DNA of 35,314 nucleotides from Methanosarcinales archaeon (lineage in GTDB: Archaea > Halobacteriota > Syntropharchaeia > Alkanophagales > Methanospirareceae). The notes beneath the pieces are model-generated. The model was not told where the DNA came from. It did not search any database and saw only the letters and a list, made by a program, of their open reading frames with translations. Both the position numbers and the translations under genes were made by a program. The DNA lies in contig JAUWQN010000010.1 in NCBI GenBank assembly GCA_030611045.1, positions 1 through 35,314 of the forward strand, read 5' to 3'. The number at the start of each line of letters is the position of its first letter. Within the stretch, counting starts at the first letter, position 1. Of the stretch, positions 11,985 to 28,634 are shown piece after piece.

Positions 11985-13394
11985 CTAATTTTTAAAGTTT
12001 TTGATTCTCGATATTCTTGCACTCTTGACAAAATTTTCAGCAAACCCGGTATAAGAAGCTGCATGCAGATGTGCAAAGGAAGCGAGGCAGTTCTTTGATA
12101 TAATGCCATCCATTCCATCCATTATACCCTTGCCTCGGAGGATTTTATAAGCAAAATCAACATTTGCCTGATTTTCAAGCAATATATTAGAATGATGGAA
12201 TTCATGCCCCTTAAACCTGCTGCCTTTTTTACCTAAGATACAATCCTTCTGAAATTCGCCTTCTACATAGTTGATGACTCTCTTTTCTCCAAATCTCACT
12301 GATCCTTTCATCACACTGCAGAGCTCAAAATTGTTGTTTTTATACCCGAGTTGTTCCATCAAATACATCAACCCGCCACATTCCGCATATATAACCCCAT
12401 ATTGATCATAAAAATCTTTTACTGCGTTGAGCATTGACCTGTTCGAGGAAAGCTCCTCTGCATACAGCTCTGGGAAGCCACCGCCAATATATAAAGCCCT
12501 CACACCTTCTGGAAGTTTTTTGTCCCTTATAGGACTGAAATATACGAGTTCTGCACCTTCCAAAGCAAGCAAATCCAATGTATCCTGATAGTAAAAATTG
12601 AACGCCTCATCAAAAGCCACCGCAATTCTGACTTTTGCTTTTTCGCTCCTATCCGCATGAAAAATCATTGATTTCGACTTTTTCAGTGTGTGTGCTGACT
12701 TTGCAACATCTAAAAGCGATTTTATATCAACATTCTCCTCCACCGAGTTTTTTATTTTATCCAAAACGCTGTTAAAATCGTTCCCTCTACTTTTACACTC
12801 GGTTGCGGTGATCAAACCGAGGTGTCGCATAGAGATTTTCAGGTCGCTCTTGCGAGGGATCTTACCGATAACATTTATACCGCAATACTTCTCCACCGCT
12901 TTCTGCGCCTTCTCCCCATGTCTCTCGCTCCCAATATTGTTTAAAATAGCCCCTGAAATCTGTACTTCAGGATCAAAACATTTATATCCGTTAACCAACG
13001 CTGCAACACTCCTCGTGATGCTACTCGCATCAATTACAAGTATAACCGGGCAGTCTAAAATCTTGGCTATCTGTGCAGTGCTTCCTACATCATCGGAATA
13101 ATTTAAACCTTCGTAGAGCCCCCGTACCCCTTCTATCACAGCAATATCCGCACCTTTACTGCCCCTTATAAATATCTCCTTCACCACCTCGGGAGACATT
13201 AAAAAACCGTCCAGATTCCTCGAAGGTCTACCAGAAACTAAGGTATGAAAGCCCGGATCAATATAGTCGAGTCCTACCTTGAACCCCTGAACCTCAAGTC
13301 CTCTCTCTCGCAAAGCACCCAATAACCCAATACAAACAGTAGTCTTACCTGCTGAACTCCTGTCCCCTGCAATCACCACCCTCGGGATGTTCAT
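11985..13394 (-). CDS. cfbB: Ni-sirohydrochlorin a,c-diamide synthase
   Basis: ATP- and glutamine-dependent amidation of the a and c acetate side chains of Ni-sirohydrochlorin, the second dedicated F430 step. It is a CobB/CbiA-type enzyme of 469 residues: an N-terminal P-loop domain ([10 protein letters not shown], residues 10-19), [13 protein letters not shown] near 147, and a class I glutamine amidotransferase domain with nucleophile Cys339 in [10 protein letters not shown] and catalytic His442 in SFAHLHAA. Sequence alone does not separate CfbB from CbiA of cobalamin synthesis. The neighbours cfbC and cfbA, and the absence of other cob/cbi genes, favour CfbB. It starts a minus-strand run with the dehydrogenase gene, hemA and hemB and diverges from cfbC. 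Confidence 0.93.
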
Positions 13395-13457
13395 ATTTAT
13401 TCTAAAAATTTTTATTTCACTTTAAGATACTTGAGTGAAGTTAAAAGAGGAGCAAAT
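13395..13457. promoter_or_regulatory. Divergent promoter region between cfbB and cfbC with a dyad
   Basis: This 63-base AT-rich gap serves two diverging F430 genes. It contains an imperfect dyad at 13417-13438 with outer arms TCACT and AGTGA around TTTAAGATACTT. The eight bases TTTAAGAT also occur at the cfbA promoter (14481-14488), so a common TATA element or regulator is possible. AGGAG at 13449-13453 is the cfbC ribosome site. Confidence 0.4.
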
Positions 13458-14360
13458 TTGAAATTTTTGGCGAAAATGAGACAGATAGCATTTTATGGTA
13501 AAGGAGGCGTTGGAAAATCCACAGTAAGCTCGAACATCGCTGCTGCGTTAGCTGAGCATGGTCTTGTAGTGATGATGATTGGCTGCGACCCAAAGTGCGA
13601 CTGTACGAGAAACTTACGAGGCGAGGTTGAAATACCAACTATTCTTGACACGTCAAGAGACAAAGGTATAGAGCAGTTGGGTCTTGATGGTGTGGTGAAA
13701 GGAAATAAAATCAGACTTGATGAAGTCATCTACAAAGGTTATAGGGGTGTTTATTGCGCCGAATGCGGAGGGCCAAGACCAGGTGTTGGATGCGCGGGTA
13801 GAGGAGTCATCGTTGCGATTGATCTGCTTAAGAGGCTGAATGCCTTTGATGAACTTAAGCCGGACGTGGTGATCTACGACGTACCTGGCGATGTTGTGTG
13901 TGGTGGTTTTGCAATGCCCCTGAGGCGGGGCTTGGCTGACGAGGTCTATATTGTAACATCAGCGGATTATCTTGCTCTTTACGCCGCAAACAATATTTGC
14001 AAGGGTATCAGCGAGTTCGCTACCAAAGGCGGGTCTCCATTGGGGGGTATCGTTTATAACGTTAGAGGTATGCTTGATGACGATAATGTCGTTCACGATT
14101 TCGCTGAAACGGTTGGGTCACACGTTATTGGGCATATCCCTAACGCACATCAGATTGCAGAAGCCGAGATTGCAGGTAATACCGTAATTGAATATGAACC
14201 TAATAGTGGTGTTGCCGATTTGTTCCGGGAGCTGGCTCTGAGAATCTATACCAACACGCGGACCTCAGTCCCTGAGCCTTTACCGCCAAAAGAGATGATC
14301 AGGATAGGTCAAGTAATAAGAAGGAGGACAAAGGAGAAGTATGAGGGAGGCCAAGTGTGA
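13458..14360 (+). CDS. cfbC: Ni-sirohydrochlorin a,c-diamide reductive cyclase, NifH-like subunit
   Basis: ATP-driven reductase component that passes electrons to CfbD for the six-electron reduction and ring cyclisation of the F430 precursor. It is a nitrogenase-iron-protein homologue: P-loop GKGGVGKST (residues 14-22), and the two cysteines that bridge the shared 4Fe-4S cluster in the dimer, Cys112 (GVGCAGRGV) and Cys148 ([10 protein letters not shown]). I place the start at TTG 13458 because AGGAG lies five bases upstream; the first ATG is at 13476 and an upstream TTG is at 13431. The result is 300 residues. No nifD/K/E/N is present, and cfbA, cfbB, cfbD and cfbE are in the window, so nitrogenase is unlikely. 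Confidence 0.95.
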
Positions 14361-14501: not shown

Positions 14502-14548
14502 GGAGTTAGGATCGTTTGATAGCACGTAAAATAAAGAAGGTGACGAAA

Positions 14549-14977
14549 ATGGCAAAAGAAGAAGATAGAGACGTAGGCGGAGATGGAGAAGGCGTTGCGG
14601 TCGTTTTAATAGGACATGGAAGCACATTACCGTATAACAAGGAAGTATTGGAAGAGTTAGGAAGGCGAATGGAACTGCGAGGGGTATTTAAGGTGGTACG
14701 GGTAGCCTTCATGCAATTGAACTCGCCGAGCATTGAAGAAGTACTGAGAACCCTTGCTAAGGACGGAATGAAGAAGATAGTGGCACTGCCAGTTTTTTTG
14801 GCAGACGGGGCGCATACCACAGAGGATATTCCAGAGAAGTTGAAAATCGCTTTCGAGGAAGCTTGGGAGGAATTAGGTAGAGATGTTACGCTTACTTACG
14901 CAAAGCCAATAGGAGTGGATGACCGGATTGTGGATATATTACTGGATCGAGTAAACGAGGCGATGAAAAGTAGATGA
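14549..14977 (+). CDS. cfbA: Sirohydrochlorin nickelochelatase
   Basis: Inserts Ni2+ into sirohydrochlorin, the first dedicated F430 step. It is a short-form CbiX/CfbA chelatase of 143 residues that works as a homodimer in the family. Metal-binding histidines are His23 in VVLIGHGSTLPYN and His89 in FLADGAHTTEDIP. The start is the ATG at 14549 (MAKEED), preceded by AAGGTGA; a TTG at 14516 would add 11 basic residues but sits close to the predicted transcription start. An acidic leader (EEDRDVGGDGEG) precedes the fold. The same family also inserts cobalt, so the nickel role rests on the adjoining cfbB and cfbC genes. It is monocistronic, with a palindromic promoter. Confidence 0.94.
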   Translation: MAKEEDRDVGGDGEGVAVVLIGHGSTLPYNKEVLEELGRRMELRGVFKVVRVAFMQLNSPSIEEVLRTLAKDGMKKIVALPVFLADGAHTTEDIPEKLKIAFEEAWEELGRDVTLTYAKPIGVDDRIVDILLDRVNEAMKSR

Positions 14978-15249: not shown

Positions 15250-16617
15250 ATGATAAATAGAAAAGCGGCTGTGGTGGTTTTAGCAATATTCTTGTGCAGT
15301 GTATTCACTGTAACGGGTTCGGCACAAGGGAGTATCGTCAGCGATTATCCGGGATTAAAGCCGGTAGTTGACCTTGTTGGAGAAGAAGATCTCTCAGTGA
15401 TGAATTTAGTAGGGTATAAAGCGGCGAAAAAGGCAGTGGAGGAGTTAGGATTTAGCAAAGGCGATCCCAACATTCTGGTACTGACAGACGCGGGATATAT
15501 TGCTAACATCGGCAAGTATAGCTCAGAAGGAGCCCTTAACGGTGTGATGATGACCGCTGGCGTCTCACGAGGTGAGGGGAATTTGGTGAATGTGCATAGA
15601 GGGTGTGATAAACCGCTTTGGTTTGCTTTCTTTGACAAAGAGACAGGCGATTGCATCTACCTTGAGGTAAACAAGGGCAACCTTAGGTCATGGTTAGACA
15701 AGGAAGCTGCAGGGACAGTTGATTTTTCAAAGTTCATGGAGGTCGGTGCAGATGCTTTGTTCTCGAAGATTTCCAGGGAGAATATAGACCCGGACAAACT
15801 CATCACCGAGGAAGGGGCAAAGGCATGGAATCACAATTTCGATGAGAAAACGTTTGGCGGAAATGAGTTCAGCATTCTCACCATAAGCGCCGTCTGGAGC
15901 ACGGGGATAAGCAATGAATTCTTACGGAGTGCGGAATTCCACAATCATATTTGTCCCGGGCTCACCAGTGGTTACTTTATGACACAATACCTGAGAGAAA
16001 ACTATCCACTGGAAGAAGGTGAGGAGTGGGTTGTTTGGTCCGTTCCCCCATGGTGTAAGGACGATGCCTTTCAGCAGATATTTGACTGCACCGTGGGAAA
16101 GAGAGGCATGGCCGTAATGTATGTCCCGGGCAGTGTCAGCGAAAAGCTTGCTCCAGAGTACAAGAACATAGCAGGGATATACATAAAAATGGGTAAGACG
16201 GGTGAGGCAAAAGCAATAGTTTTAGGTTGGGACTGGGGTAAAGCTCAATCTGACTGCGGAATAAGCGGAGCAGATATGAAGGGATTTGACAGCCACAAAT
16301 GGTGGTGGGCCAGGCTCAGGTCGGATGTAGTGCTCATGGATCATGAGCCGGAAGAATATATCTCCGAGTTGATGGTAAAAGATCTGGGAAATCAGGTCTC
16401 GGTTAAAGTGATGAATGCCAAGTGGATGGCAGTAGGCGCAAATCCTCTGGTTGAGCTTGGCATTATGCCAGAACCTGAAACTACAGCGGCACCAGCATCG
16501 ACACCAGTACCGACACCCGCAGAAGAAACGCCATCAATCCCCGGACTTGGAGTCATAGCAGCTATAGCCATAGCTGGTACGCTTGTGTACGTAGCGAAGC
16601 GAAGGAAGCAGGGATAG
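15250..16617 (+). CDS. Secreted FmdE-family protein with PGF-CTERM-like anchor
   Basis: A 455-residue exported protein. Residues 1-25 are a signal peptide (cleavage near GSAQG). Residues ~30-200 form an N-terminal domain with VNVHRGCDKPLWFAFF. An FmdE domain starts at about 220 with the signature EFHNHICPGL (229-238). A Thr/Pro/Ala-rich linker (~409-429) leads to PGLG, a membrane helix and KRRK, which resembles the PGF-CTERM sorting tail cut by archaeosortase A. Histidines and cysteines (Cys119, 135, 235, 269, 280, 336) could bind metal. FmdE was named for the molybdenum formylmethanofuran dehydrogenase operon and its function is unsettled. The location beside cfbA and the ECF importer, plus the promoter shared with nikK, suggests extracytoplasmic nickel binding; that is inference. 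Confidence 0.85.
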   Translation: MINRKAAVVVLAIFLCSVFTVTGSAQGSIVSDYPGLKPVVDLVGEEDLSVMNLVGYKAAKKAVEELGFSKGDPNILVLTDAGYIANIGKYSSEGALNGVMMTAGVSRGEGNLVNVHRGCDKPLWFAFFDKETGDCIYLEVNKGNLRSWLDKEAAGTVDFSKFMEVGADALFSKISRENIDPDKLITEEGAKAWNHNFDEKTFGGNEFSILTISAVWSTGISNEFLRSAEFHNHICPGLTSGYFMTQYLRENYPLEEGEEWVVWSVPPWCKDDAFQQIFDCTVGKRGMAVMYVPGSVSEKLAPEYKNIAGIYIKMGKTGEAKAIVLGWDWGKAQSDCGISGADMKGFDSHKWWWARLRSDVVLMDHEPEEYISELMVKDLGNQVSVKVMNAKWMAVGANPLVELGIMPEPETTAAPASTPVPTPAEETPSIPGLGVIAAIAIAGTLVYVAKRRKQG

Positions 16618-16788: not shown

Positions 16789-17469
16789 ATGAAAGGGCAG
16801 AGTGAAAAGGAGCCATTAAGAAAAAATATAGAAAAGTTAATAGAAAAAGAAGACCTAAAAGGATTGCTTGAGAATACTGGAGAATTACACGGACATTTCT
16901 GCGCCTATTCAGCATGTGGCGTCAAGGCTGGCTATATTGCCATGCGTGAACTGGGGATAAAAAATATGGGTATGAGAGATTTTGTGGCGATTGTTGAGAC
17001 TAACAATTGCTTTAGTGATGGTATTCAACTCGTAACTGGCTGTACTTTTGGAAACAGAGCTCTTATATTCAAAGATTACGGAAAAACTGCGGTAACCGTG
17101 GCAAAAAGAGATGGCACGGCAATAAGAATCGCTATTAATCCCGATTTTGTGGACTCTCTTACTGAGAAATATCCTGAAGCTTGGTCATTGTTTGAAAAAA
17201 TTGTTGTCAGGAGAGAAAAAACAACAAAGGAGGAAATTGGGAGATTAACGCAGTTGTTCAATAGGATGACCTTTGAGATGCTGGATGTGCCAGAGGAGGA
17301 AATGTTCAGAATTGAGCGCAAAACGATAAAGGTGCCTGAGTCTGCTCCGATGTCCCATCCGATATTCTCAGCAACAAAATGCCCTGTTTGTGGTGAAAAA
17401 GTCCTGGAGACGCATGTGAGAGTAAAGGATGGTAGGACAGTATGCATTCCATGCTCTGGTGAGGAGTGA
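16789..17469 (+). CDS. FmdE-family protein with C-terminal zinc ribbon
   Basis: A 226-residue cytoplasmic FmdE protein. The family signature is GELHGHFCAYSACGVKAGY (His33, His35, Cys38, Cys43), followed by ETNNCFSDGIQLVTGCTFGNRAL, whose Cys74 and Cys85 belong to the conserved core. The C-terminal domain has CPVC (198-201) and CIPC (219-222), a typical treble-clef or zinc-ribbon pair. There is no signal peptide, unlike the FmdE protein just upstream. The ATG follows GTGAGGTGAA. It lies about 170 bases after the secreted FmdE gene, with a poly-G/poly-pyrimidine stretch between them. Likely a metal- or cofactor-handling protein acting inside the cell. The pairing with an exported paralogue is suggestive of a relay but unproven. 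Confidence 0.85.
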   Translation: MKGQSEKEPLRKNIEKLIEKEDLKGLLENTGELHGHFCAYSACGVKAGYIAMRELGIKNMGMRDFVAIVETNNCFSDGIQLVTGCTFGNRALIFKDYGKTAVTVAKRDGTAIRIAINPDFVDSLTEKYPEAWSLFEKIVVRREKTTKEEIGRLTQLFNRMTFEMLDVPEEEMFRIERKTIKVPESAPMSHPIFSATKCPVCGEKVLETHVRVKDGRTVCIPCSGEE

Positions 17470-17612: not shown

Positions 17613-17771
17613 ATGTGCGCACCAATAACTGTAGCGGCAGTGGGTGGAGTGGTCGCAGTTCAAGCGATAATAGCGACTAAAATGATAGGTGCTGTCGTTC
17701 TCGGCAGTGTCTTTGTCGCGAACTACCTTCACCCGCTAAAAAAGCTAAACCTTAGAAAGGTGGAGGAGTAA
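17613..17771 (+). CDS. Small single-helix membrane protein, unknown
   Basis: A 52-residue ORF: MCAPITVAAVGGVVAVQAII, then ATKMIGAVVLGSVFVANYL, then a basic cytoplasmic-looking tail (HPLKKLNLRKVEE). It has its own TATA/BRE promoter, a GAGGTG ribosome site and a strong hairpin plus T-run at its end, so it looks like a free-standing small gene. The hydrophobic part (residues ~4-38) could form one long or two short membrane helices. I do not recognise a family. It is too short and lacks features to be called CbiN. It sits between the FmdE gene and the radical SAM gene, in a nickel/F430 context. It could be an accessory subunit of an importer. Confidence 0.6.
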   Translation: MCAPITVAAVGGVVAVQAIIATKMIGAVVLGSVFVANYLHPLKKLNLRKVEE

Positions 17772-17811
17772 GCGGAACCCCGCTTTCTACTTCCTCCCTT
17801 TTTTATTTTTC
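17762..17811 (+). terminator. Hairpin plus T-run terminator
   Basis: GGAGGA...AGCGG pairs with CCGCTT...TTCCTCC around an AACC loop, with a small bulge in the 3' arm, and is followed by CTTTTTTATTTTT. The 5' arm overlaps the last codons of the small membrane protein gene. It has the form of a rho-independent terminator, and the T-run alone would suffice in archaea. The radical SAM gene starts seven bases further on, so it may partly depend on read-through. Confidence 0.65.
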
Positions 17812-17817
17812 CCAAAA

Positions 17818-18672
17818 ATGCTCAAGCGAATATTCAGTTATCTGACGCTGCAAATCGAGCCTACCAAGGAATGCAACTTAAACTGTAAAATGTGCATGAG
17901 AAGAAATCTTGAAGGATCGGTTGGTTCCCTCTCCTTGGATAATTTCAAGAAAATATTGGATTCATATAACTTTCGTTACGTTGCTTTACACGGCTGGGGC
18001 GAGCCTCTTATGAACCCGGAGTTATTGGGAATGATAAAATATGCAGAGTCTAAAGGCGTGCATACAAATCTCACTACTAATGGAACGCTGATAGATGAAA
18101 ATATCGGTAATATTTTTGACTCCGGTCTAAGAGAAATCGCTTTTGGGATATACGATAAAGGGGTCTTACTGAAAACCATACCTGAGCTGGAGAAGCTGAT
18201 AAGCGAAAAGGCGCAATTGGGTTTTAAAAAGCCAAAAACGTATCTTGACATCACTATATACGAGGATAATTACGATGAAATCCTGGACATGGTAAAACTT
18301 GCTAAAGAAGCGGGAATAGAAGCAGTTATCCTTCACAGGCTTTTCAACGTTTATAACGTGGACACTGATATAAACTATATTTCGGAAAAAGAAGAGGAAA
18401 ATTTATTCCGGGAGTTGAATAAATTGAAAAAAGAGTTGAAATTTGAGATTTATTTACCCCGGAGGCATTCTTTACCCTGTAGAATCGTTAAGTATAGCGT
18501 GTTTGTCACCTGTGATGGCAAAGTAACCCCGTGCTGTTTCCTGCCAGAGTTCTACATGGGGAACGTGCTTGAGAGTGAAGATAGAATCGGTGACATTCTG
18601 AGGTCACGAGAGTATAGGGAGTTTATTAAAAACATGAAGGAGCATCCTGTATGCAGCAAATGTAGGTGGTGA
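17818..18672 (+). CDS. Radical SAM protein with SPASM-like C-terminal cysteines
   Basis: Binds SAM at a 4Fe-4S cluster held by Cys19, Cys23 and Cys26 (CNLNCKMC). GWGEPLMNP (60-67) is the GGE-type SAM-binding motif, and the core beta/alpha barrel runs to about residue 215. The C-terminal cysteines Cys221, Cys232, Cys239, Cys240, Cys279 and Cys282, with CDGKVTPCCF and CSKCRW at the very end, match SPASM/Twitch domains that carry auxiliary clusters. At 284 residues it is short for a SPASM enzyme. It lacks the UPF0004 and TRAM domains of MiaB-type methylthiotransferases. No peptide substrate gene is obvious, unless it is the 52-residue ORF upstream. The reaction is unknown. The position among F430 and nickel genes makes a cofactor-modifying role possible. 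There is no clear ribosome site before the ATG. Confidence 0.85.
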   Translation: MLKRIFSYLTLQIEPTKECNLNCKMCMRRNLEGSVGSLSLDNFKKILDSYNFRYVALHGWGEPLMNPELLGMIKYAESKGVHTNLTTNGTLIDENIGNIFDSGLREIAFGIYDKGVLLKTIPELEKLISEKAQLGFKKPKTYLDITIYEDNYDEILDMVKLAKEAGIEAVILHRLFNVYNVDTDINYISEKEEENLFRELNKLKKELKFEIYLPRRHSLPCRIVKYSVFVTCDGKVTPCCFLPEFYMGNVLESEDRIGDILRSREYREFIKNMKEHPVCSKCRW

Positions 18673-18682
18673 AGATGAAAAG

Positions 18683-19246
18683 ATGAAAGAGGGAAAGTCT
18701 TATTTCGATGTGTATGAACTCGGAATGATAGCCTTGTTTGCTCTTGGTAGCGCTCTACTAAATACCTATCTTCCAATAAAAACGTTTACGGAATATCTTG
18801 GCATACCGGGACCTGCGGCTGGAATGGCGGTATTAGGAGGATTTATTTTTGTGCTCTGGATAGCTTTGGCGCATGCGATTATAAAAAAGAGATATGCCGG
18901 GGTCGTCACGTCACTTTTAATCGCTTCTTTTTGCCTGCTTATAGCTCCGTGGTATGGAGTTGTTTCACCAATCTGGTTTGGCATTTACGGGGTTATAGCT
19001 CTGCTTTCAATGGGTATTTTTGTAGAGCTAACAGCGTCTAAGTCCGTATTTAAAGGTGCAATTGGGGGAGGTCTGGGGAATTTAGCGTGTTTGGGAATTA
19101 CATGGATAGCTATAGGAGTTCATGCTGGGGTATGGGTACCGTCAAAATTCGCACCAATTCTTATGCTTGCCGCTTTTGTTTCTGGTACTATTGGTGCGTT
19201 AATAGCATATTGGATTACAAAAGTGAGAAGAAAAGAGCAAATCTAA
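18683..19246 (+). CDS. Multi-spanning membrane protein, ECF S-component-like
   Basis: A 187-residue integral membrane protein with about five to six hydrophobic helices (roughly residues 11-30, 43-65, 72-92, 95-118, 123-145, 153-178) and small glycine-rich loops (IPGPAAGMAVLGG, GAIGGGLGNLACLG). The pattern resembles substrate-binding S-components of energy-coupling factor transporters, but I cannot name the subfamily. The gene starts ten bases after the radical SAM stop and ends about 90 bases before the nikK promoter block. It therefore probably forms an operon with the radical SAM gene, and could share the CbiQ/CbiO energy unit encoded downstream. Substrate unknown; a vitamin, metal or tetrapyrrole-related compound would fit the context. 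Confidence 0.6.
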   Translation: MKEGKSYFDVYELGMIALFALGSALLNTYLPIKTFTEYLGIPGPAAGMAVLGGFIFVLWIALAHAIIKKRYAGVVTSLLIASFCLLIAPWYGVVSPIWFGIYGVIALLSMGIFVELTASKSVFKGAIGGGLGNLACLGITWIAIGVHAGVWVPSKFAPILMLAAFVSGTIGALIAYWITKVRRKEQI

Positions 19247-19410: not shown

Positions 19411-20448
19411 ATGATAAAAAGAAGAAAAAAGGTGACTACGATAGCGACTATTCTCCTGGCAGGGATACTCCTTGCAAGTGCTGTGGGGATGGCGAGCGCG
19501 CATTTTACGATGGTCTTCCCCAGCGATAATGCGGCTACCGTTTGGGATGTGACACCTGAAGACTACATTGCAGATGAGGGCGAGACCAAGACCGTATATA
19601 TGATGTGGGGGCACCCCTACGAGCATATACTCTTTGACATGGGGTCTGTACCCGAGGTCTCGGTCATGAAACCCGACGGCACGGTTCTGCAACTTACGAC
19701 GGAAGAGATCACCGTTGATGGAATGGACGAAGACGGAAATCTCGGAACCTTCAAGGCATACAAGGCATCGTTCACTATTGATCAAATGGGCGATTCCGTT
19801 GTCTTTGTGAAATATGAGGACGAAGGGGAGAATTTGATAGACTACACCAAAGCCGTCATCCACTGCGGTGAAGAGACATGGTTTGGCTGGGATGCCGAGG
19901 TCGGACAGCAGACCGAGATCATCCCGTACATGCGACCCTACGGCATGGAGGCGGGCTTTGTCTTCGCTGGAAAGGCACTGTACAACGGCAAGGTGCTTGC
20001 AGGCGCGCCAGTAGAGGTTGAGATATACCACACATTAGATGCTGGTAAAGAGGTAGTAGAAACCGCAGAGACAATGTTCCCGTACGACCCTGCGATGGTC
20101 TTCACACGACTCACCATGTCCAATGAGAACGGAGAGTTCGTGTACACGCTTGACGAGCCAGGGATATGGTTTGTCGGTGCTACAATGGAGCCTGAGACCG
20201 GGCAAAACATAAGGGGCGTTTTCATCGTTCCAGTGATCGAGGAGTTCCCCGCGCAAGAATCAGCAGAGGCTGCTGCGTCCCCTGCTGGACTCGAAGAACT
20301 AAATAGCCGTGTAAAATCGTTGGAAGACAAAGTGGCAACACAGGAACTGGAAACACCTGCGGGAGAAGGATTACCTGGATTTGGTGTGATAGCTGCGATG
20401 GCTGGGTTGTTAACCGTAGTGTATTTGGTAAAAAGAAGAAAGAGATAA
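19411..20448 (+). CDS. NikK-like extracytoplasmic nickel-binding protein (DUF4198), PGF-CTERM anchored
   Basis: A DUF4198-type component of ECF nickel transporters, 345 residues. Residues 1-30 are a signal peptide ending ASA, so the mature protein would begin at His31 (HFTMVFPSD), as common for metal-binding proteins of this family. Further histidines and acidic residues lie in MMWGHPYEHILFDMG. A predicted coiled coil (LEELNSRVKSLEDKVATQE) precedes the tail GLPGFGVIAAMAG...KRRK, a good PGF-CTERM sorting signal. It is followed 12 bases later by nikM. The GC is slightly higher than its neighbours. The role as a metal-capturing surface protein for the importer follows from the NikK-M-L-Q-O gene order; the cobalt-versus-nickel choice is inferred from the F430 context. 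Confidence 0.85.
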   Translation: MIKRRKKVTTIATILLAGILLASAVGMASAHFTMVFPSDNAATVWDVTPEDYIADEGETKTVYMMWGHPYEHILFDMGSVPEVSVMKPDGTVLQLTTEEITVDGMDEDGNLGTFKAYKASFTIDQMGDSVVFVKYEDEGENLIDYTKAVIHCGEETWFGWDAEVGQQTEIIPYMRPYGMEAGFVFAGKALYNGKVLAGAPVEVEIYHTLDAGKEVVETAETMFPYDPAMVFTRLTMSNENGEFVYTLDEPGIWFVGATMEPETGQNIRGVFIVPVIEEFPAQESAEAAASPAGLEELNSRVKSLEDKVATQELETPAGEGLPGFGVIAAMAGLLTVVYLVKRRKR

Positions 20449-20460
20449 GCAAGAACAAAA

Positions 20461-21105
20461 ATGGTGCATATATCTGATGGAGTATTATCTCTGCCAGTAT
20501 TGGCAGCGGGATGGGCAATAACCGGAGTTTTGATCGCGGTAACGCTCTGGTGGAGTAAAAGGAAGGGCAGTATAATAGAGGAGATACCACGCTTATCGGT
20601 GATGACCTCCGCATTTTTTGTCGCCTCTCTTCTCCATATAGCCATAGGACCGACAAGCGTGCATCTCATACTTTCTGGCTTAGTGGGTGTAATACTTGGA
20701 ATACTTGCCTATCCCGCCATTTTTATTGGTCTTATCCTACAAGCTTTTCTCTTCGGTCATGGCGGCGTAACGACTATCGGGATAAACACGGTAGTCATGG
20801 GGATACCCGCATTGATTGCATATGGCATCTTCAAAGCAGGGAGCAGGTTAGACTTCTTAAGAAAAGGCGTATCAGAAGCGATATTCGGTGCTATTGCAGG
20901 AGGAGTTGCGGTTGCTCTCGCTGTTCTTTTCCTCGTGATATGCTTGCTCACAACCGGGAAGGAGTTCTCAGGCGTGGCAAGCCTCGTTGCCGTGGCACAT
21001 ATCCCGATAATCATAATAGAAGCGGTGATTGTGGGCTCTGTGGTTGCCTTTCTGGCGAGGGTTAAACCTGAGTTAATAGGAAGTTTAGGAGGTGATAGGA
21101 AATGA
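20461..21105 (+). CDS. ECF transporter S-component for nickel/cobalt (NikM/CbiM)
   Basis: Membrane substrate-binding subunit, 214 residues with about six to seven helices. The family N-terminus HISDG, the LHIAIGPTSVHLILSGLVGV motif and the FGHGGVTTIGINTVVMG motif are present. In NikM the metal is held by the N-terminal amine, His2 and a later histidine. The ATG here gives Met-Val-His, whereas the adjacent GTG at 20464 would give the usual Met-His. With ATG, removal of Met before Val would also leave His as residue 2. The gene overlaps nikL by four bases. Identification is firm; the metal is inferred. Confidence 0.93.
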   Translation: MVHISDGVLSLPVLAAGWAITGVLIAVTLWWSKRKGSIIEEIPRLSVMTSAFFVASLLHIAIGPTSVHLILSGLVGVILGILAYPAIFIGLILQAFLFGHGGVTTIGINTVVMGIPALIAYGIFKAGSRLDFLRKGVSEAIFGAIAGGVAVALAVLFLVICLLTTGKEFSGVASLVAVAHIPIIIIEAVIVGSVVAFLARVKPELIGSLGGDRK

Positions 21106-21569
21106 ACGGAAAATTGGTTTTTGCTGTTTTTGCAATGCTTCTGGTGTTATCGTGCTTGAGCATAAGCGCGGTGAGCGCCCACAGGGTATATGTGAAAGGT
21201 GAAATATGGGAGATAGGAGTAAAAGCCTGGTTTGGTGGTGGAGAACCAATGAGAGACGCCGATGTGGAAGTATATGCCATTAAAGAGGGGAAAGAGGAAC
21301 TATACGGGGAAGGGAAAACTGATGAGAACGGTAAATTCGGCTTCGCTCCAAAAATAGGTGTTGAAGAGTATAAAGTGGTAGTGGAATCACCAGGAGGTCA
21401 TAAAGGAGAAACCGTGGTAAACTTGACACAAGCAGCTTCACCTGGAGAAGGAACGGAAATGCCTTTATACACAAGAACTATCGCAGGATTTGGATACTTA
21501 ATCGGTTTAGCAGGAGCTGCAATGGCGTACATGGGCTGGAAGATGAAGAAGAAATACGAAAATCTGTGA
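21102..21569 (+). CDS. NikL-like accessory protein of the ECF nickel transporter
   Basis: A 155-residue exported protein with signal peptide (residues 1-26, ending VSA), a mature N-terminus predicted at His27 (HRVYVKGE), one carboxypeptidase-regulatory-like beta-sandwich (GGEPMRDADVEVYA, GKTDENGKFGFAP) and a C-terminal membrane helix (~131-148) with a KKKY tail. This architecture and the place between nikM and nikQ match NikL of NikKMLQO systems, which replaces CbiN. The mature amino-terminal histidine may help bind Ni2+, as in NikK. Its start overlaps the nikM stop (ATGA), so translation is coupled. Confidence 0.85.
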   Translation: MNGKLVFAVFAMLLVLSCLSISAVSAHRVYVKGEIWEIGVKAWFGGGEPMRDADVEVYAIKEGKEELYGEGKTDENGKFGFAPKIGVEEYKVVVESPGGHKGETVVNLTQAASPGEGTEMPLYTRTIAGFGYLIGLAGAAMAYMGWKMKKKYENL

Positions 21570-21591
21570 AAAACTTTTCTTTTAGTGCAGG

Positions 21592-21613
21592 TTTTCTTTT
21601 TGTAAAAAGAAAA
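21592..21613 (+). other. Perfect 10-bp hairpin before nikQ
   Basis: TTTTCTTTTT (21592-21601) and AAAAAGAAAA (21604-21613) are exact reverse complements with a two-base gap, ending six bases before the probable nikQ ATG. In RNA it could fold (with a slightly opened loop) and hide the initiation region or slow transcription. If nikQ instead starts at the GTG at 21566, the repeat is coding. Confidence 0.4.
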
Positions 21614-21619
21614 AGTGCA

Positions 21620-22390
21620 ATGATAGAATATCCAGAGATTGATAGGTATGCATCGCTTGATTCGCCAATGCATCGGTTTGACCCGAGGGCGAAGATAATC
21701 GCATTTCTTTTTCTTATCTTCTCCGTAGTTCTTATACCAGATTTAAAGATAGCTTTCATTGGGTTGTTTTTTGCTATTTTTCTTCTTCTTCTGTCCAGAA
21801 TCCCAATCTCCTTTGTGTTAAGCTATATGAAATGGGTTGCTATGTTCGTTTTGTCCTTTTTCGTCATTCTGGCATTCACATTTCCAGGTGAAGAACTCGC
21901 CAAATTTTATTTCCTGAGTATTACGGCTGAGGGTGTATATACTGGGTCTTTGATTACCATAAGGGCTTTTTCTGCCATCATCCTCATTTTTCCGATGATT
22001 GGAACCATGAGATTTGACACGACGATTAAAGCGTTGGATAGGTTAAAAGTTCCTAATTCGCTGGTTCAAATGCTTATGTTCACGTATCGCTACATCTTTG
22101 TGTTTGTGGATGAGTTTCAAAGGATATGGACGGCAATGGAATCAAGAGGGTTCAAACTGAGGACTACTTTATATGCGCTCAGGACGATAGGAAAAGCGAT
22201 GGGAATGCTTTTTGTCCGAAGTTACGAAAGAGCAGAGCGGGTGTATCAGGCAATGCGTTCGCGAGGATATACCGGCAATCCGAAAACGCTGGTTGAGTTT
22301 GAGATTCACATGAAGGACTACCTATTAGCTGTTTTTATCATAGGGTTTGCTATTTCTTTGCATGTGATTTCTTTTGTGGGTGTGTTCTGA
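21620..22390 (+). CDS. ECF transporter T-component (CbiQ/NikQ)
   Basis: Transmembrane coupling subunit. The N-terminus IDRYASLDSPMHRFDPRAKI is the CbiQ signature. Five or so helices follow, and the two cytoplasmic coupling helices carry Ala-Arg-Gly-type motifs (AMESRGFKL and AMRSRGYTG), which contact the ATPase. I prefer the ATG at 21620 (MIEYPEIDRY, 256 residues), since the family starts near this point. A GTG at 21566, overlapping the nikL stop codon, would add 18 residues. It is followed six bases later by the ATPase gene. Confidence 0.92.
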   Translation: MIEYPEIDRYASLDSPMHRFDPRAKIIAFLFLIFSVVLIPDLKIAFIGLFFAIFLLLLSRIPISFVLSYMKWVAMFVLSFFVILAFTFPGEELAKFYFLSITAEGVYTGSLITIRAFSAIILIFPMIGTMRFDTTIKALDRLKVPNSLVQMLMFTYRYIFVFVDEFQRIWTAMESRGFKLRTTLYALRTIGKAMGMLFVRSYERAERVYQAMRSRGYTGNPKTLVEFEIHMKDYLLAVFIIGFAISLHVISFVGVF

Positions 22391-22396
22391 AGAAAA

Positions 22397-23311
22397 ATGA
22401 GAGACGCAATAATAGTGAGAAACCTCAGTTACACGTATCCCGACGGTACAGAGGCGTTGGAAGATGTGAACATGGCGGTGTATGAAGGAGAGAAGATCGC
22501 GATAGTTGGACCAAACGGTGCTGGTAAAACGACTTTTTTGCTACATCTTAATGGAATTCTCCACGGTACCAATGGACAAGTAGAAGTATTCGGCAAGAGC
22601 GTGGACAAGGGGAAAAGAGAAGAAATAATAAAAGAAGTAGGGATTGTTTTTCAAGACCCAGATGACCAATTGTTCATGCCCACGATTTTCGATGACCTCG
22701 CTTTTGGTCCGATAAATCTGGGGCTAAAAGAAGAGGAAGTGCGGGAAAGGGTAGAAAACGCTCTTCTAACACTTGGACTTTCTGATTATGAAAACAGGTG
22801 TCCTCATCATCTCAGTTATGGTGAGAAGAAGAAAGCAGCCCTGGCGGCGGTTATGTCTATGGAGCCTAAGATATTAGTGCTTGACGAGCCTACCGCTAAT
22901 CTTGACCCAAGGAGCAGAGCTGAATTGATAGATATTATAAAGGGATTAAATGAACGGGAAGGAATTACCATTGTGACCGCAACACATGACGTAAATGCTG
23001 TTCCTGAGCTTGCAGACCGGGTATACGTGCTGAACAAGCGGATAATCGCGGAAGGCACTTCGCAGAAGATATTTTCTGATGTTGAACTGCTAAATGAGAC
23101 CAATCTGGAAGTGCCGGAAGTATTCAAGCTTTTTGAAGTCTTACAATGTTTTGGTTACAACTGCGAAGAGCTACCTCTGTCCGTAGACGAAGCGATTGAG
23201 CACCTGACGAGGACGGTAGAAAATGAAGGTGGGCACATACATCTACACATTCATAAGCACACTCATGACGAGGTGAAGAAATTGAAAACTAAGTATGAGC
23301 ATCATAAATAA
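22397..23311 (+). CDS. ECF transporter ATPase (CbiO/NikO) with histidine-rich tail
   Basis: Energy-coupling ATPase. Walker A is GPNGAGKT (38-45), the Q-loop Gln is at 86 (VFQDPDDQLF), the signature is LSYGE (139-143), Walker B is ILVLDEP (159-165) and the H-loop His is at 197. After the usual domain, a tail of about 30 residues carries alternating histidines at 280, 282, 284, 286, 288 and 290 plus His302 and His303. Such a tail can bind nickel or cobalt and could act as a store or sensor. At 304 residues it is slightly longer than typical. It is the last gene of the nikKMLQO operon. Confidence 0.94.
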   Translation: MRDAIIVRNLSYTYPDGTEALEDVNMAVYEGEKIAIVGPNGAGKTTFLLHLNGILHGTNGQVEVFGKSVDKGKREEIIKEVGIVFQDPDDQLFMPTIFDDLAFGPINLGLKEEEVRERVENALLTLGLSDYENRCPHHLSYGEKKKAALAAVMSMEPKILVLDEPTANLDPRSRAELIDIIKGLNEREGITIVTATHDVNAVPELADRVYVLNKRIIAEGTSQKIFSDVELLNETNLEVPEVFKLFEVLQCFGYNCEELPLSVDEAIEHLTRTVENEGGHIHLHIHKHTHDEVKKLKTKYEHHK

Positions 23312-23658: not shown

Positions 23659-23751
23659 ATGAAAGCCGAAAGCTTAGAATTAGTAACAGCATCCTTTGAG
23701 TTGTGCGAATCTATGAAGGGATTAAAAAGGGGGCAGTGTAGATGGACATAA
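23659..23751 (+). CDS. 30-residue leader ORF overlapping the DUF364 gene
   Basis: Short ORF MKAESLELVTASFELCESMK followed by GLKRGQCRWT. It has an AAAGGTG ribosome site and ends ten bases inside the downstream gene, so ribosomes finishing it could re-initiate at 23742. The DUF364 start has the GGGGGCAG stretch as its own weak ribosome site. It may be a leader peptide, or the remnant of a longer gene. I do not recognise a family. Confidence 0.4.
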   Translation: MKAESLELVTASFELCESMKGLKRGQCRWT

Positions 23752-24602
23752 TAAAAGACACAATAAAAGAGGTAGAAAATCTTGGTATAGAAGCATCGCT
23801 TTCAAACGTGGTTATCACAAGACTCGGCCCGTGGACATTGAGCCATGTGAGATACGATGATGGGGAACTCGGGTGTGGGTGCGCAAACAACGAAGCGGAA
23901 CGAGGAGGGATTCCCAAAGATGTATCGTTTATAAAAGCTCTGCTCGATTTGAATGCTTATGAGGTCTTAGACAAATTGGAGAGTTTTGAGAACAGCGTAT
24001 TCATAAACTCGCTCAGAGCATCAATAGTTTCAGCGCTCTCTTACAGGCTAATGAACGGTGGAAGCGAATTGAAAAAAGAAGGATACGATGTCGAAACCTT
24101 CTCTGCCCCAAACACCCCCCTTTTAAACCCGTCAAAATTCGTGCGAACCTCGGATAAAGTAGCAATGGTTGGTTTTCACATGACGGCTACACCTCTGTGT
24201 GCAGAAGTTGCAAAGGAGGTGCATGTTACCGAGCTCATGGATTTGAAGCAGCTATCGGTCATCGATTTCGATGCTGATGAGGATTCCAGGATGAAAATAT
24301 TTCCCGCAGATAAGAGCAGGGACGTTCTAAGCGGCGCTGATGTTGTTTACATCACTGGTGAGACCGTGGTGAATGGCACATTAGATGAACTTCTCGAATC
24401 TTCACAAAATGCCAGAACACGAATAATCTACGGTCCTACCTCGGCTTTTTATCCCAAAGTGCTTTTTGAACACGGTGTGGACGTTTCTTTGCCGATAATC
24501 TTTCCAAATACTTCTGATTTTCGGAGACGATTCGCACTAAGCCGGGGTTATTGGTATTCGATGCGGGATGTGAAACAGATGTTAATAAAAAGGAGGCAAT
24601 AG
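23742..24602 (+). CDS. DUF4213/DUF364 putative heavy-metal-chelation protein
   Basis: A 286-residue cytosolic protein. The N-terminal part fits DUF4213 (WTLSHVRYDDGELGCGCANN, then SALSYRLMNGG). The C-terminal part fits DUF364, a Rossmann-like fold described as putative heavy-metal chelation, with VAMVGFHMTATPLC and the characteristic VVYITGETVVNGTLDELLESS. Cys45 and Cys47, in GCGC, could bind a metal. Members are often encoded near metal transporters and cofactor genes, but the biochemical role is unproven. It is the first full gene of an operon with the NikA/DppA-type lipoprotein, one base separating them. Confidence 0.85.
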   Translation: MDIIKDTIKEVENLGIEASLSNVVITRLGPWTLSHVRYDDGELGCGCANNEAERGGIPKDVSFIKALLDLNAYEVLDKLESFENSVFINSLRASIVSALSYRLMNGGSELKKEGYDVETFSAPNTPLLNPSKFVRTSDKVAMVGFHMTATPLCAEVAKEVHVTELMDLKQLSVIDFDADEDSRMKIFPADKSRDVLSGADVVYITGETVVNGTLDELLESSQNARTRIIYGPTSAFYPKVLFEHGVDVSLPIIFPNTSDFRRRFALSRGYWYSMRDVKQMLIKRRQ

Positions 24603-24603
24603 A

Positions 24604-26193
24604 ATGGAAAAGAAGTTGAAAAATGCTTTGTTGGGTTGCATAATTGTGGTGGGGATCCTCGGAGGCGGTATGATGGCTGGCTGTATAGCCCCACAGGAAG
24701 AAGCTTCGAACGAGTCACCTCAAGAGATGGTTATTGGGATAGGTGAAGATATAAAAGGGTTGGAGCCTGTTTGTGGGTGTCCTTGGGGAGCACCACTTCG
24801 CCCGATTTATGAAACATTGGTAGTAGAAGATGCGGATCTTAAAATTCAACCTTTGCTGGCAGAGTCATGGGAAGTATCAGAAGACGGTAAAGTATGGACT
24901 TTTCACCTGAGAACGGGAATAAAATTCCACGATGATACTCCATTTGATGCTTCTGCGGTGAAATTTTCTTTTGAATATAACCCTGCCCCATACCGTGCTC
25001 TCACGCGCTACACAGAATCAATAGAGACACCAGATGAATACACGGTTAAATTCGTTTTAAATGAGCCTTATGCACCCCTGTTAAGGGATCTCAGTATGGA
25101 CCCCATAATGAGCCCTACTTGTGTGGATGAGATGGGAGAGTTCGTAAAACCGATCGGGACAGGACCATTCAAACTCGATGAGTGGGTCAAAGGGCAAAAA
25201 ATTGTGCTGGTACAGAATGAAAAATATTGGAGAGGGGCACCAAAATTAGAAGTAGTAACCTTTAAAATAATCCCTGATGCCTCCGCAAGAGCTATGGCTT
25301 TAGAAACCGGAGAAATAGACCTGACAGGTCATCGAGCAGGTAGAGGAGTATTATACGTTTCAGACATCCCGAGGCTGAGAGAAGAACCAGAAATAAAAAT
25401 AGTTGAAGGATATACGCAGCCCTGCGTGAATTGGATTCAGTTCAATACTGAAAAAGAACCATTCCGCGATTTAAAAGTGAGACAAGCTGTTTACTACGCT
25501 CTTGACACTCAAAAAATGGTCGCCTCTATAATGGGTGAGACCGCCGCACCATTATTGAAAGGACCTTTGTCAATACCATCCACCGAACATCTCTTAAACC
25601 AGAATCTAACGTGGTATCCATACAACCCAGAGATAGCAAAAGAGTTATTAACAGAAGCTGGATGGGAAGATACCGATGGAGATGGTATTCGAGATAGAAA
25701 TGGGGAACAACTAAAAGTTACATTTGTTCTCTCTGCTTTCTCTCCAGAATTACCAAAAATCGCAGAGATAGCCCAAGCACAATTGAAAGAGATTGGAATG
25801 GATGTGAAATTGCAAATGGTCGAGTATGGAGCTCAGCAAATGCTGTTTGAAAAGGGGCAATATGACATGATGATGCAAATGGGCGTTTGTGGACATGGTG
25901 ATCCCTCTCTCTGGTTTAATTACTTCTTCCATTCAAAACGGGGGGTTCGCTGCGCTTTCAAAGACAACCAGCTAACTACCCTAATAGACCGTCTGTACAC
26001 CACGGTAGACCCGAAAGACAGTCTTGAGGTATTTTACGAAATCCAGGAGATAATGGAGGAGAGCGCCCCGGGAACTTTCTTATACACCGATCCAAATATC
26101 GTCGCTATGAATAAGCGGGTCAAAGACTACGAGCTGCAAGGAGGAATACACGGGGCATATCTCAGCCTGTGGAAGGTGTACATCGAAGAATAG
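24604..26193 (+). CDS. NikA/DppA-type ABC transporter substrate-binding lipoprotein
   Basis: Family 5 solute-binding protein, 529 residues, that captures peptides, nickel complexes or similar ligands outside the membrane. The signal ends in the lipobox MAGC (Cys27). A Ser/Glu/Gln-rich linker follows, then the family core: RPIYETLVVEDADLKIQPLL, AESWEVSEDGKVWTFHLRTG, GTGPFKLDEW, and the late NPEIAKELLTEAGW segment. A CGHGDPSLWFNYFFHSK stretch near 433 is rich in Cys/His. The AGGAGGCAAT before the ATG overlaps the DUF364 stop. The two permeases and two ATPases lie downstream, after two inserted enzyme genes. The substrate cannot be read from sequence; nickel or a nickel chelate is suggested by the cfb context. 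Confidence 0.92.
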   Translation: MEKKLKNALLGCIIVVGILGGGMMAGCIAPQEEASNESPQEMVIGIGEDIKGLEPVCGCPWGAPLRPIYETLVVEDADLKIQPLLAESWEVSEDGKVWTFHLRTGIKFHDDTPFDASAVKFSFEYNPAPYRALTRYTESIETPDEYTVKFVLNEPYAPLLRDLSMDPIMSPTCVDEMGEFVKPIGTGPFKLDEWVKGQKIVLVQNEKYWRGAPKLEVVTFKIIPDASARAMALETGEIDLTGHRAGRGVLYVSDIPRLREEPEIKIVEGYTQPCVNWIQFNTEKEPFRDLKVRQAVYYALDTQKMVASIMGETAAPLLKGPLSIPSTEHLLNQNLTWYPYNPEIAKELLTEAGWEDTDGDGIRDRNGEQLKVTFVLSAFSPELPKIAEIAQAQLKEIGMDVKLQMVEYGAQQMLFEKGQYDMMMQMGVCGHGDPSLWFNYFFHSKRGVRCAFKDNQLTTLIDRLYTTVDPKDSLEVFYEIQEIMEESAPGTFLYTDPNIVAMNKRVKDYELQGGIHGAYLSLWKVYIEE

Positions 26194-26211
26194 GACAGGA
26201 GGTAAAAAAAC

Positions 26212-26673
26212 ATGGAAATGAGTGATGATGTGAAGAGAGTAATAAACAACAATGTTGTCCATTTAGCGACTTCTTCAAGAGACGGAAAGCCGAATGTGGT
26301 CCCAGTGGGGCTTTGCAGAGCGATCAGCAACCATGAACTGCTGATTGTAGATGTGTATTTCAAAAAGACGAGAAAAAACCTGGAGGAAAATTCACAGGTT
26401 GCAATTGCAGTTGAAGCGCTGGAAGAACTGAGAGCGTATCAGCTTAAAGGGAAAGCAAAGATTTTCACGCAGGGGGAATTATATGAGAGAGCGATGGAAA
26501 TAATGAAAGAGCAGGACAAAGTGCGAGAGAGAAAGATCTCGGCATGGAGAGAAAAGAGACCTGATCTGGCAGAGAGATTTGAAAAACTTGCTGAACGGCA
26601 TCACAAACTAAGACCGAAAGCTGTTGTACTGGTAGATGTGAGGGAGATATATTCGACAATGCATAATGCATAG
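26212..26673 (+). CDS. Pyridoxamine 5'-phosphate oxidase-fold flavoprotein
   Basis: Small split-barrel protein of the PPOX/flavin-binding superfamily, 153 residues. Core strands read VVHLATSSRDGKPNVVPVGL, then LLIVDVYFKKTRKNLEENSQVAIAV, then AYQLKGKAKIFTQG. A charged helical tail follows. Members bind FMN, F420 or heme and reduce small molecules; this one's cofactor is unknown. It is translated from an AGGAGGT site and sits between the substrate-binding protein and a methyltransferase, inside the transporter operon. Its conservation there would suggest processing of the imported compound or of a tetrapyrrole. Confidence 0.85.
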   Translation: MEMSDDVKRVINNNVVHLATSSRDGKPNVVPVGLCRAISNHELLIVDVYFKKTRKNLEENSQVAIAVEALEELRAYQLKGKAKIFTQGELYERAMEIMKEQDKVRERKISAWREKRPDLAERFEKLAERHHKLRPKAVVLVDVREIYSTMHNA

Positions 26674-26689
26674 GAGGGGAGGTAACGAA

Positions 26690-27697
26690 ATGGATAAAAT
26701 AGTATATAGGATACCCGAATTAGATTTTGGGTTTATAGATGAAATAACAAAAGGAAACGAAAAAGCAAATATTCTATTTACTGCCGTGGATTACGGAATT
26801 TTTGATCTACTCACCCAACCAAAGACGGCGGATCAGGTTTCAGAGGCAATCAAAACCGACCCTTACTTGACTGAGAAGTTCTTGAATACGCTGGTGGCTT
26901 TGAATCTTCTCCACAAAATAGAGAACAGATACTTAAATACCAAACTTGCAGAGACGTTTCTTGTGAAGAAAAGCCCTTTTTATCAAGGCACTTTATTTGG
27001 GATGAAGAGGAGAGGATCAACAGATTGGCAAAGAATAAGTAAAGCACTAAAGAACGGCGGTATTCAAACAGGAACAGGAAATAAGAGCATTATTGACCGA
27101 ACATTTATTATAGGGCATGCTGAAATAGCCATTACAGGTGCTTTGCAAAGGGCAGTGGACGTTATTTCAACACTTCCAGAATTTGGAAATGCAAAAAAGA
27201 TCCTTGACCTCGGTGGTGGTCATGGGCTGTATTCTATTGCCTTCCAGCAATTGAAGCCCGACCTTGAAGTCGTTTTATTTGATCTGCCTCACGTTACAGA
27301 AATTGCAAAGGAATATCTCGAGCAATATGGAATGCAAGGCAAAATAAAAATTGTTGCTGGTGATTTTACCAAAGATGACATTGGCAATGGCTATGACATT
27401 GTTTTTGTATCCGATGTGACGATATCCGGTATCCTAAAGAAGATATATGATGCTCTGAACGAGAATGGTGCCCTGATCTACCGACGATGGACAATTAACG
27501 ATAATAGAACGTCACCCTTGACTTCTGTTCTATTTGATTTCATGCTGGCAATGAGGAGAAGTGAGCACCGAGTGTACACATTGGGAGAATACATCCGTCT
27601 TTTGGATGCTGCGGGATTTTCTATCACACGAATCCTGGATATATCCTACCCACAAGACCCAACAAAAATCCTCATCGCAAAGAAGGAGAGATGTTGA
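26690..27697 (+). CDS. O-methyltransferase-like protein (acetylserotonin/hydroxyneurosporene type)
   Basis: Class I SAM methyltransferase of 335 residues with an N-terminal winged-helix dimerisation domain (AVDYGIFDLLTQPKTADQVSEAI, then LTEKFLNTLVALNLL) and a catalytic domain with motif I ILDLGGGHGLYS near 166-177, and VVLFDLPHV. This is the architecture of plant-type O-methyltransferases and bacterial C/O-methylases acting on aromatic or tetrapyrrole substrates. I start it at the ATG at 26690, which follows GGAGGTAACGAA; an earlier ATG at 26666 lies inside the PPOX gene. Its stop overlaps the start of the permease gene. The substrate is not identifiable. No catalytic His could be assigned with certainty, so it may act on an N, S or C atom, or be regulatory. 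Confidence 0.85.
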   Translation: MDKIVYRIPELDFGFIDEITKGNEKANILFTAVDYGIFDLLTQPKTADQVSEAIKTDPYLTEKFLNTLVALNLLHKIENRYLNTKLAETFLVKKSPFYQGTLFGMKRRGSTDWQRISKALKNGGIQTGTGNKSIIDRTFIIGHAEIAITGALQRAVDVISTLPEFGNAKKILDLGGGHGLYSIAFQQLKPDLEVVLFDLPHVTEIAKEYLEQYGMQGKIKIVAGDFTKDDIGNGYDIVFVSDVTISGILKKIYDALNENGALIYRRWTINDNRTSPLTSVLFDFMLAMRRSEHRVYTLGEYIRLLDAAGFSITRILDISYPQDPTKILIAKKERC

Positions 27698-28632: not shown

Positions 28633-28634
28633 TA

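Follow-up and report, generated by a model that had tools for sequence, protein, structure and literature searches.

A predicted radical SAM maturase, an N-terminal-cysteine membrane peptide and an S-component-like protein form a putative RiPP-like module within an ANME-1 cfb/nickel locus

The DNA analysed here, called the window, is a stretch of 35,314 nucleotides. At 17613-19246 it carries three genes that most likely belong to an uncharacterised RiPP-like module modifying membrane-anchored peptides with an N-terminal cysteine. The best overall explanation, which we consider likely, is a radical SAM/SPASM maturase of a membrane MCxP peptide, placed in a metal-handling module. That this peptide is the substrate of the enzyme is highly probable. 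For the modified residue, we lean towards Cys2. The three genes would be part of a mobile-looking module that stands outside F430 biosynthesis. ANME-1 has the module in common with another archaeal family and several phyla of bacteria, and the predicted substrate is narrowed to a seven-residue motif. The prediction of peptide modification can be tested directly in standard hosts. We found no description of the module in the open-licence literature. To our knowledge, radical SAM modification of the N-terminal cysteine on a leaderless, membrane-anchored peptide is undescribed.

The source organism is an ANME-1 archaeon (Methanophagales), since homologous contigs are titled Methanophagales or ANME-1 and the source genome has mcrA. 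This agrees with the type of organism supposed in the initial annotation. Likewise, the three open reading frames that it reported at 17613-19246 are present, all on the plus strand. The first one encodes the 52-aa MCxP peptide (17613-17771; small-ORF, profile and dN/dS evidence). A hairpin, AAGCGG-AACC-CCGCTT, and a T-rich run follow in the sequence (17770-17810, plus strand). Next are the 284-aa radical SAM enzyme with a predicted reduced SPASM/twitch domain (17818-18672; Pfam, NCBIfam, alignment and fold) and a 187-aa membrane protein with a predicted ECF S-component-like fold (18683-19246; AlphaFold2, Foldseek and gene order). NCBIfam and Pfam also confirm that the radical SAM gene lies between cfbA and the nickel importer.

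Upstream of the module, NCBIfam identifies cfbB (11985-13394), a cfbC-like gene (13431-14360; 334 bits with the CfbC model, below its cut-off of 402) and cfbA (14516-14977). Downstream, it identifies cfbE (31464-32762) and cfbD (32829-33932). Two FmdE genes, missing from the initial annotation, are placed between cfbA and the peptide, both on the plus strand. The first encodes an exported FmdE-domain protein of 455 aa (15250-16617; Pfam PF02663, 5.3e-21) and the second an FmdE protein with a C-terminal zinc finger (16789-17469; PF02663, 5.9e-37). After the membrane protein, on the same strand, come a DUF4198 exported protein with PGF-CTERM (19411-20448; Pfam PF10670, 6.7e-29) and the CbiM, NikL, CbiQ and CbiO genes of a nickel/cobalt ECF importer (20461-23311; Pfam, NCBIfam). 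The DUF4198 gene adjoins the module in L042 and L035 as well. The cfb cluster is interrupted at 23742-31358 by a block encoding DUF364 ('putative heavy-metal chelation'), a family-5 solute-binding protein, PPOX, an O-methyltransferase and DppBCDF. In the nearest relative, L035, cfbE comes directly after cbiO.

The window peptide starts with Met-Cys-Ala-Pro and continues with one membrane helix (about residues 18-36) and a basic C-terminal tail. Its ATG is preceded by a Shine-Dalgarno-like GAGGTGA, and an in-frame TAA lies three codons ahead. The conserved N-terminus of the family is M-C-x-P-[VIL]-[ST]-[VI], followed by the membrane helix and the basic tail. We gathered 63 distinct peptides with a pattern that requires M-C-x-P, so the invariance of MCxP is built into this set. 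At position 6, 57 of them have S, A or T, and at position 7, 59 have V or I. Cys2 is the sole cysteine in 43, and the bacterial class carries an extra C-[TQ]-G-x-C. With a profile lacking its first four columns, 50 small ORFs were found, and 46 have MCxP at the predicted position. Of the remaining four, two are real MCAP peptides caught in a shifted register, one is masked and one reads VCTP. The MCxP end is a true N-terminus, because 36 of the 63 peptides lack any other start upstream and a Shine-Dalgarno-like sequence precedes 59. In the nine peptides examined for charge, the hydrophobic core is preceded by almost none and followed by the basic tail. Considering this pattern and the positive-inside rule, a topology with the N-terminus outside and the C-terminus inside is likely.

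In genome G313, two large proteins of 539 and 576 aa, at L094 and L095, start with MCGP[VI][VI]YPP. They show the same N-terminal Cys-x-Pro tip and adjoin divergent relatives of the enzyme. More precisely, the gene lies about 2937-1207 nt before the enzyme at L094 and 1742-3361 nt after it at L095, on the minus strand in each case.

The peptide is closely linked to the enzyme. For 39 of the 43 enzyme homologues, an ORF of 45-60 aa beginning MC[AVST]P lies upstream at a distance of at most 450 nt. Among the exceptions, L047 and L050 have the peptide just downstream, and L115 begins at a contig edge. The background was taken from 203 other genes of the same loci. Only four have such an upstream ORF. 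Each of these is an MCxP peptide from one of the same modules, which leaves 0/203 outside the modules. This recurrence at the enzyme loci, together with dN/dS values mostly between 0.05 and 0.4 among ANME-1 relatives, indicates that the window peptide is not a chance ORF. By these values, the peptide is under purifying selection.

We also searched 51 genomes of the ANME-1 family with the peptide profile, counting a match at E≤1e-10 as a clear peptide. It is present in all 21 genomes with the enzyme and in two of the 30 without it (Fisher p = 2e-12, a value that overstates the association, given that the genomes are related). Judged from this gene content, the peptide is a constant partner of the radical SAM enzyme. 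Maturation of the 52-residue peptide by this enzyme, which the initial annotation offered as an alternative, is a prediction from sequence and is strongly supported by the upstream linkage and by the co-occurrence in genomes. At L044, which is the same as L028 (ANME-1 GoMg1), a frameshift breaks the enzyme gene, and the genes for the peptide and the membrane protein appear intact.

The number of peptides per enzyme can be high. Genomes G025 and G028 each combine a single enzyme with about six or seven peptides. The hairpin and T-run between peptide and enzyme are also found in most ANME-1 loci of the FmdE type. They are possibly a partial terminator, which would give an excess of peptide over enzyme. 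Several short precursors per maturase are a RiPP-like layout, and the hairpin and T-run separate precursor from enzyme. These features, and the TonB receptors and FecCD-type importers of several loci, would also suit a secreted RiPP (metallophore, bacteriocin or signal). Its N-terminal part would be cut from the hydrophobic follower and released. However, a dedicated peptidase or exporter is not a recurring feature of the module neighbourhoods. Moreover, the N-terminal tip is conserved and the variable part is the membrane helix with the basic tail, which suggests retention in the membrane. We regard release as unlikely. The name 'metallophore', used in the initial annotation, is at most tentative: metal-transport neighbours recur at some loci and are missing at others, and the peptide has the appearance of one held in the membrane, not released. 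At L050 and L105, pairs of an exported TPR protein and an MCxP peptide stand in tandem, with up to four repeats, around one enzyme or without one.

The enzyme matches Radical_SAM (PF04055, 9.5e-16) and SPASM (PF13186, 5.8e-14) in Pfam. Its CX3CX2C motif (C19/C23/C26) is invariant in the family. The initial annotation had counted six C-terminal cysteines, and the window protein does have them all (221, 231, 239, 240, 279 and 282). Nevertheless, only C221, C239, C279 and C282 are invariant. Because four C-terminal cysteines are invariant, the alignment predicts one auxiliary Fe-S cluster, in a reduced SPASM form. Also among the invariant residues are LHGWGEP, H-R-L-F-N and a Trp at the C-terminus. 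At the head of the fold matches for the enzyme model are BlsE and the peptide maturases SuiB, SkfB, PqqE and CteB. Four of these five neighbours act on peptides.

The enzyme resembles SuiB, SkfB, PqqE and CteB in its CX3CX2C core, its SPASM-type C-terminal domain, the short peptide gene beside it and the best fold matches. On the other hand, it is 284 aa long, with four conserved C-terminal cysteines (one predicted auxiliary cluster). RRE/PqqD domains are common, not universal, in radical SAM/SPASM RiPP maturases. We found no recognition domain of this type in the enzyme, where Pfam and NCBIfam give radical SAM/SPASM and Fer4_12 matches only. The predicted substrate differs too. It would span the membrane and bear its motif at the extreme N-terminus, and the lack of a classical leader, like the missing recognition domain, counts against the maturase reading. 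A read-through fusion of enzyme and peptide (L024) was modelled for docking. The tail is badly placed, and the model gives only a weak hint of docking, with a pLDDT of about 55 for peptide residues 1-9 versus about 33 elsewhere in the tail. Two other identities were rejected. Weak PADLOC pVip matches (4e-13) reflect general radical SAM similarity and not Viperin or defence. Likewise, a viral scan yielded one distant partial match only, and a viral origin was discarded.

The best-scoring NCBIfam model is TIGR04317, a maturase of a tungsten cofactor oxidoreductase (E 3.4e-37), with an alignment across most of both lengths. A relation to metalloenzyme maturases would favour another target. In that case, the peptide would be a small structural subunit, and the enzyme would modify the FmdE or TPR protein, the S-component-like protein or its ligand. 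The peptide and the membrane protein do occur without an adjacent enzyme at three loci (L103, L047 and L106). However, TIGR04317 scores 128 bits, far under its cut-off of 380, and the present module has peptides and an S-component-like protein. Two of these three loci belong to genomes with the enzyme elsewhere. Finally, the exported partner switches between FmdE, TPR and beta-helix proteins, while the peptide is constant. We find another target improbable, and the peptide is kept as the predicted substrate.

The membrane protein is the immediate downstream neighbour of the enzyme in most loci; at L103, L047 and L106 it follows a peptide without an adjacent enzyme. None of 29 members of its family has a significant Pfam match, and a PDB sequence search with the family profile found nothing. 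An AlphaFold2 model based on 29 homologues has a pLDDT of 87. In Foldseek against the PDB, the top match is an ECF S-component (5edl; probability 1.00, TM 0.57 and a moderate E of 7.5e-3). The third and fifth matches are PanT S-components (6zg3, 0.92; 4rfs, 0.89), with moderate E-values. A fold like that of the six-helix ECF S-components is supported by this model, which backs the 'S-component-like' label of the initial annotation.

Besides three of the top five PDB matches, the likeness to ECF S-components includes the nearby ECF T/A genes of the window. In contrast, ECF T/A genes do not adjoin the module in most loci, and the protein, which belongs to no Pfam family, is partnered with a small candidate for peptide modification. 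For AxxxA in helix 1, an important docking motif of ECF S-components (PMC4820897), the picture is mixed: most ANME-1 and bacterial members have A20-x-x-x-A24, and the members from the archaeal family f10 have no AxxxA. In the TPR-type loci, a SpoIIM-family membrane protein or none replaces it. The CbiMN and NikMN transporters offer a comparison. In them, a small membrane subunit helps the S-component, and an N-terminal motif on the outer face binds the metal. The MCxP peptides differ from CbiN and NikN in motif, the radical SAM enzyme is additional here, and the S-component-like protein does not start with the Met-His metal site of NikM type.

The exported FmdE protein has an N-terminal signal and a PGF-CTERM-like C-terminus, and it keeps the HxHxCPG and PPWC ligands. 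Relatives lie no more than about 3.3 kb upstream of most enzyme homologues, in archaea and in bacteria. The HxHxC motif is present in 22 of 22 of these partners and PxWC in 21. Solved FmdE structures bind Zn or Ni at the HxHxC...C site, and the family PF02663 is commonly beside metal transporters (PMC2954224). The partners share the domain and these ligands with the family. They differ in being exported, membrane- or lipid-anchored, and tied to the radical SAM/peptide pair. The second FmdE protein has no signal sequence. At L026, an 81% relative of it has an MCxP peptide just downstream, and its membership of the module is uncertain. The upstream exported partner varies among loci between FmdE, an exported TPR protein and a beta-helix surface protein. 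At L026 (1601-5395), a beta-helix/CBM96 surface protein of 1264 aa stands between two MCxP peptides.

Metal transport recurs around the module in several forms. The nickel/cobalt ECF importer adjoins it in the window and in L035, and CbiM/CbiQ are found at the distant locus L100. Other neighbours are FecCD permeases (L038, L051), Dpp-type transporters (L032, L052), TonB-dependent receptors (L033, L115, L116, L117, L118) and FeoA/FeoB (L117). These several unrelated arrangements are suggestive of a metal role. Many loci show no metal transporter nearby in the available sequence, and some of these contigs are short, so that the role would not hold for every locus. We put it forward tentatively, as somewhat short of an even chance. 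If true, it would mean a new route to nickel or iron for microbes in metal-poor sulfidic seeps.

We propose the following mechanism. The cytoplasmic enzyme would use SAM and one auxiliary Fe-S cluster on the extreme N-terminus of the peptide (M-C-x-P-x-[ST]-[VI]). The simplest chemistry would be a thioether formed by Cys2. The modified peptide would sit in the membrane, with its N-terminus out and its basic tail in. It would work with the S-component-like protein and an exported partner (FmdE here, TPR or beta-helix elsewhere). The most economical role would be to capture a metal or a metal complex at the surface and pass it on. In the window, the metal would probably be nickel, for the neighbouring ECF importer. 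More speculative, and on present evidence rather unlikely, is a new importer of metals or metal complexes. There, the radical-SAM-altered cysteine peptide would be the metal-binding tip of the S-component-like protein, fed by the exported FmdE.

The initial annotation considered the enzyme, perhaps with the O-methyltransferase, as a candidate for the modification of F430. The product would be 17-2-methylthio-F430 or another modified F430 for the MCR of ANME-1. In favour of this, the enzyme gene does lie among the cfb and nickel genes of an ANME-1 archaeon, and the ANME-1 MTTase that was tested did not make methylthio-F430 (PMC10702137). However, our enzyme has no sulfur-inserting MTTase domains. 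Neither the MTTase N-terminal nor the TRAM domain is matched in Pfam or among the 25 best NCBIfam matches, and an MTTase identity was rejected.

The distribution of the enzyme points the same way. Contigs with the titles Deltaproteobacteria, Desulfobacteraceae, Actinomycetes and Dehalococcoidia carry homologues with 53-60% identity, and a further 3 of 395 genomes from a single bacterial phylum also have homologues. Eleven genomes of the family f10 have relatives of the enzyme with the same neighbours. No mcrA match was found in any of the 17 enzyme-bearing genomes outside ANME-1 (six bacterial and 11 of f10), and completeness is 95% or more for seven of those from f10. Homologues in lineages lacking mcr, which the initial annotation itself had named, if widespread, as a finding against its proposal, thus exist with the same partners. 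Within the ANME-1 family, the enzyme is present in 18 and missing from 14 of the 32 mcrA-bearing genomes, where MAG gaps may contribute. Conversely, G007, G009 and G011 have the enzyme and no mcrA match, again with a possible contribution of MAG gaps. Outside the genus of the window, only one module, at L051, is near a cfb-like gene, about 5 kb away. Because of this distribution we reject the modification of F430, which seems very improbable, and a tempting wrong candidate is eliminated from the question of 17-2-methylthio-F430 synthesis.

The O-methyltransferase (26666-27697) was likewise rejected as a partner. It is part of the DUF364/SBP/PPOX/OMT/Dpp block, which is absent from L035, and it does not accompany the module in other loci. 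In the genus g4 of the ANME-1 family, six of seven genomes (G007-G012) have no mcrA match, and several of them are 89-96% complete. Gaps in the MAGs may explain this, or the lineage may be one that has no MCR.

The enzyme tree has three ANME-1 groups. Two of them are partnered with FmdE, and one, mostly partnered with TPR proteins, groups with f10. The bacteria stand apart. Since the tree separates bacteria from ANME-1, the sharing of the module between domains appears to be old, and we reject the idea that ANME-1 and its bacterial partners exchanged it recently within seep consortia. Mis-binned ANME contigs are an unlikely source of the bacterial matches, because the bacterial loci have TonB receptors, FmdE of lipoprotein type and a distinct CTGxC class of peptides.
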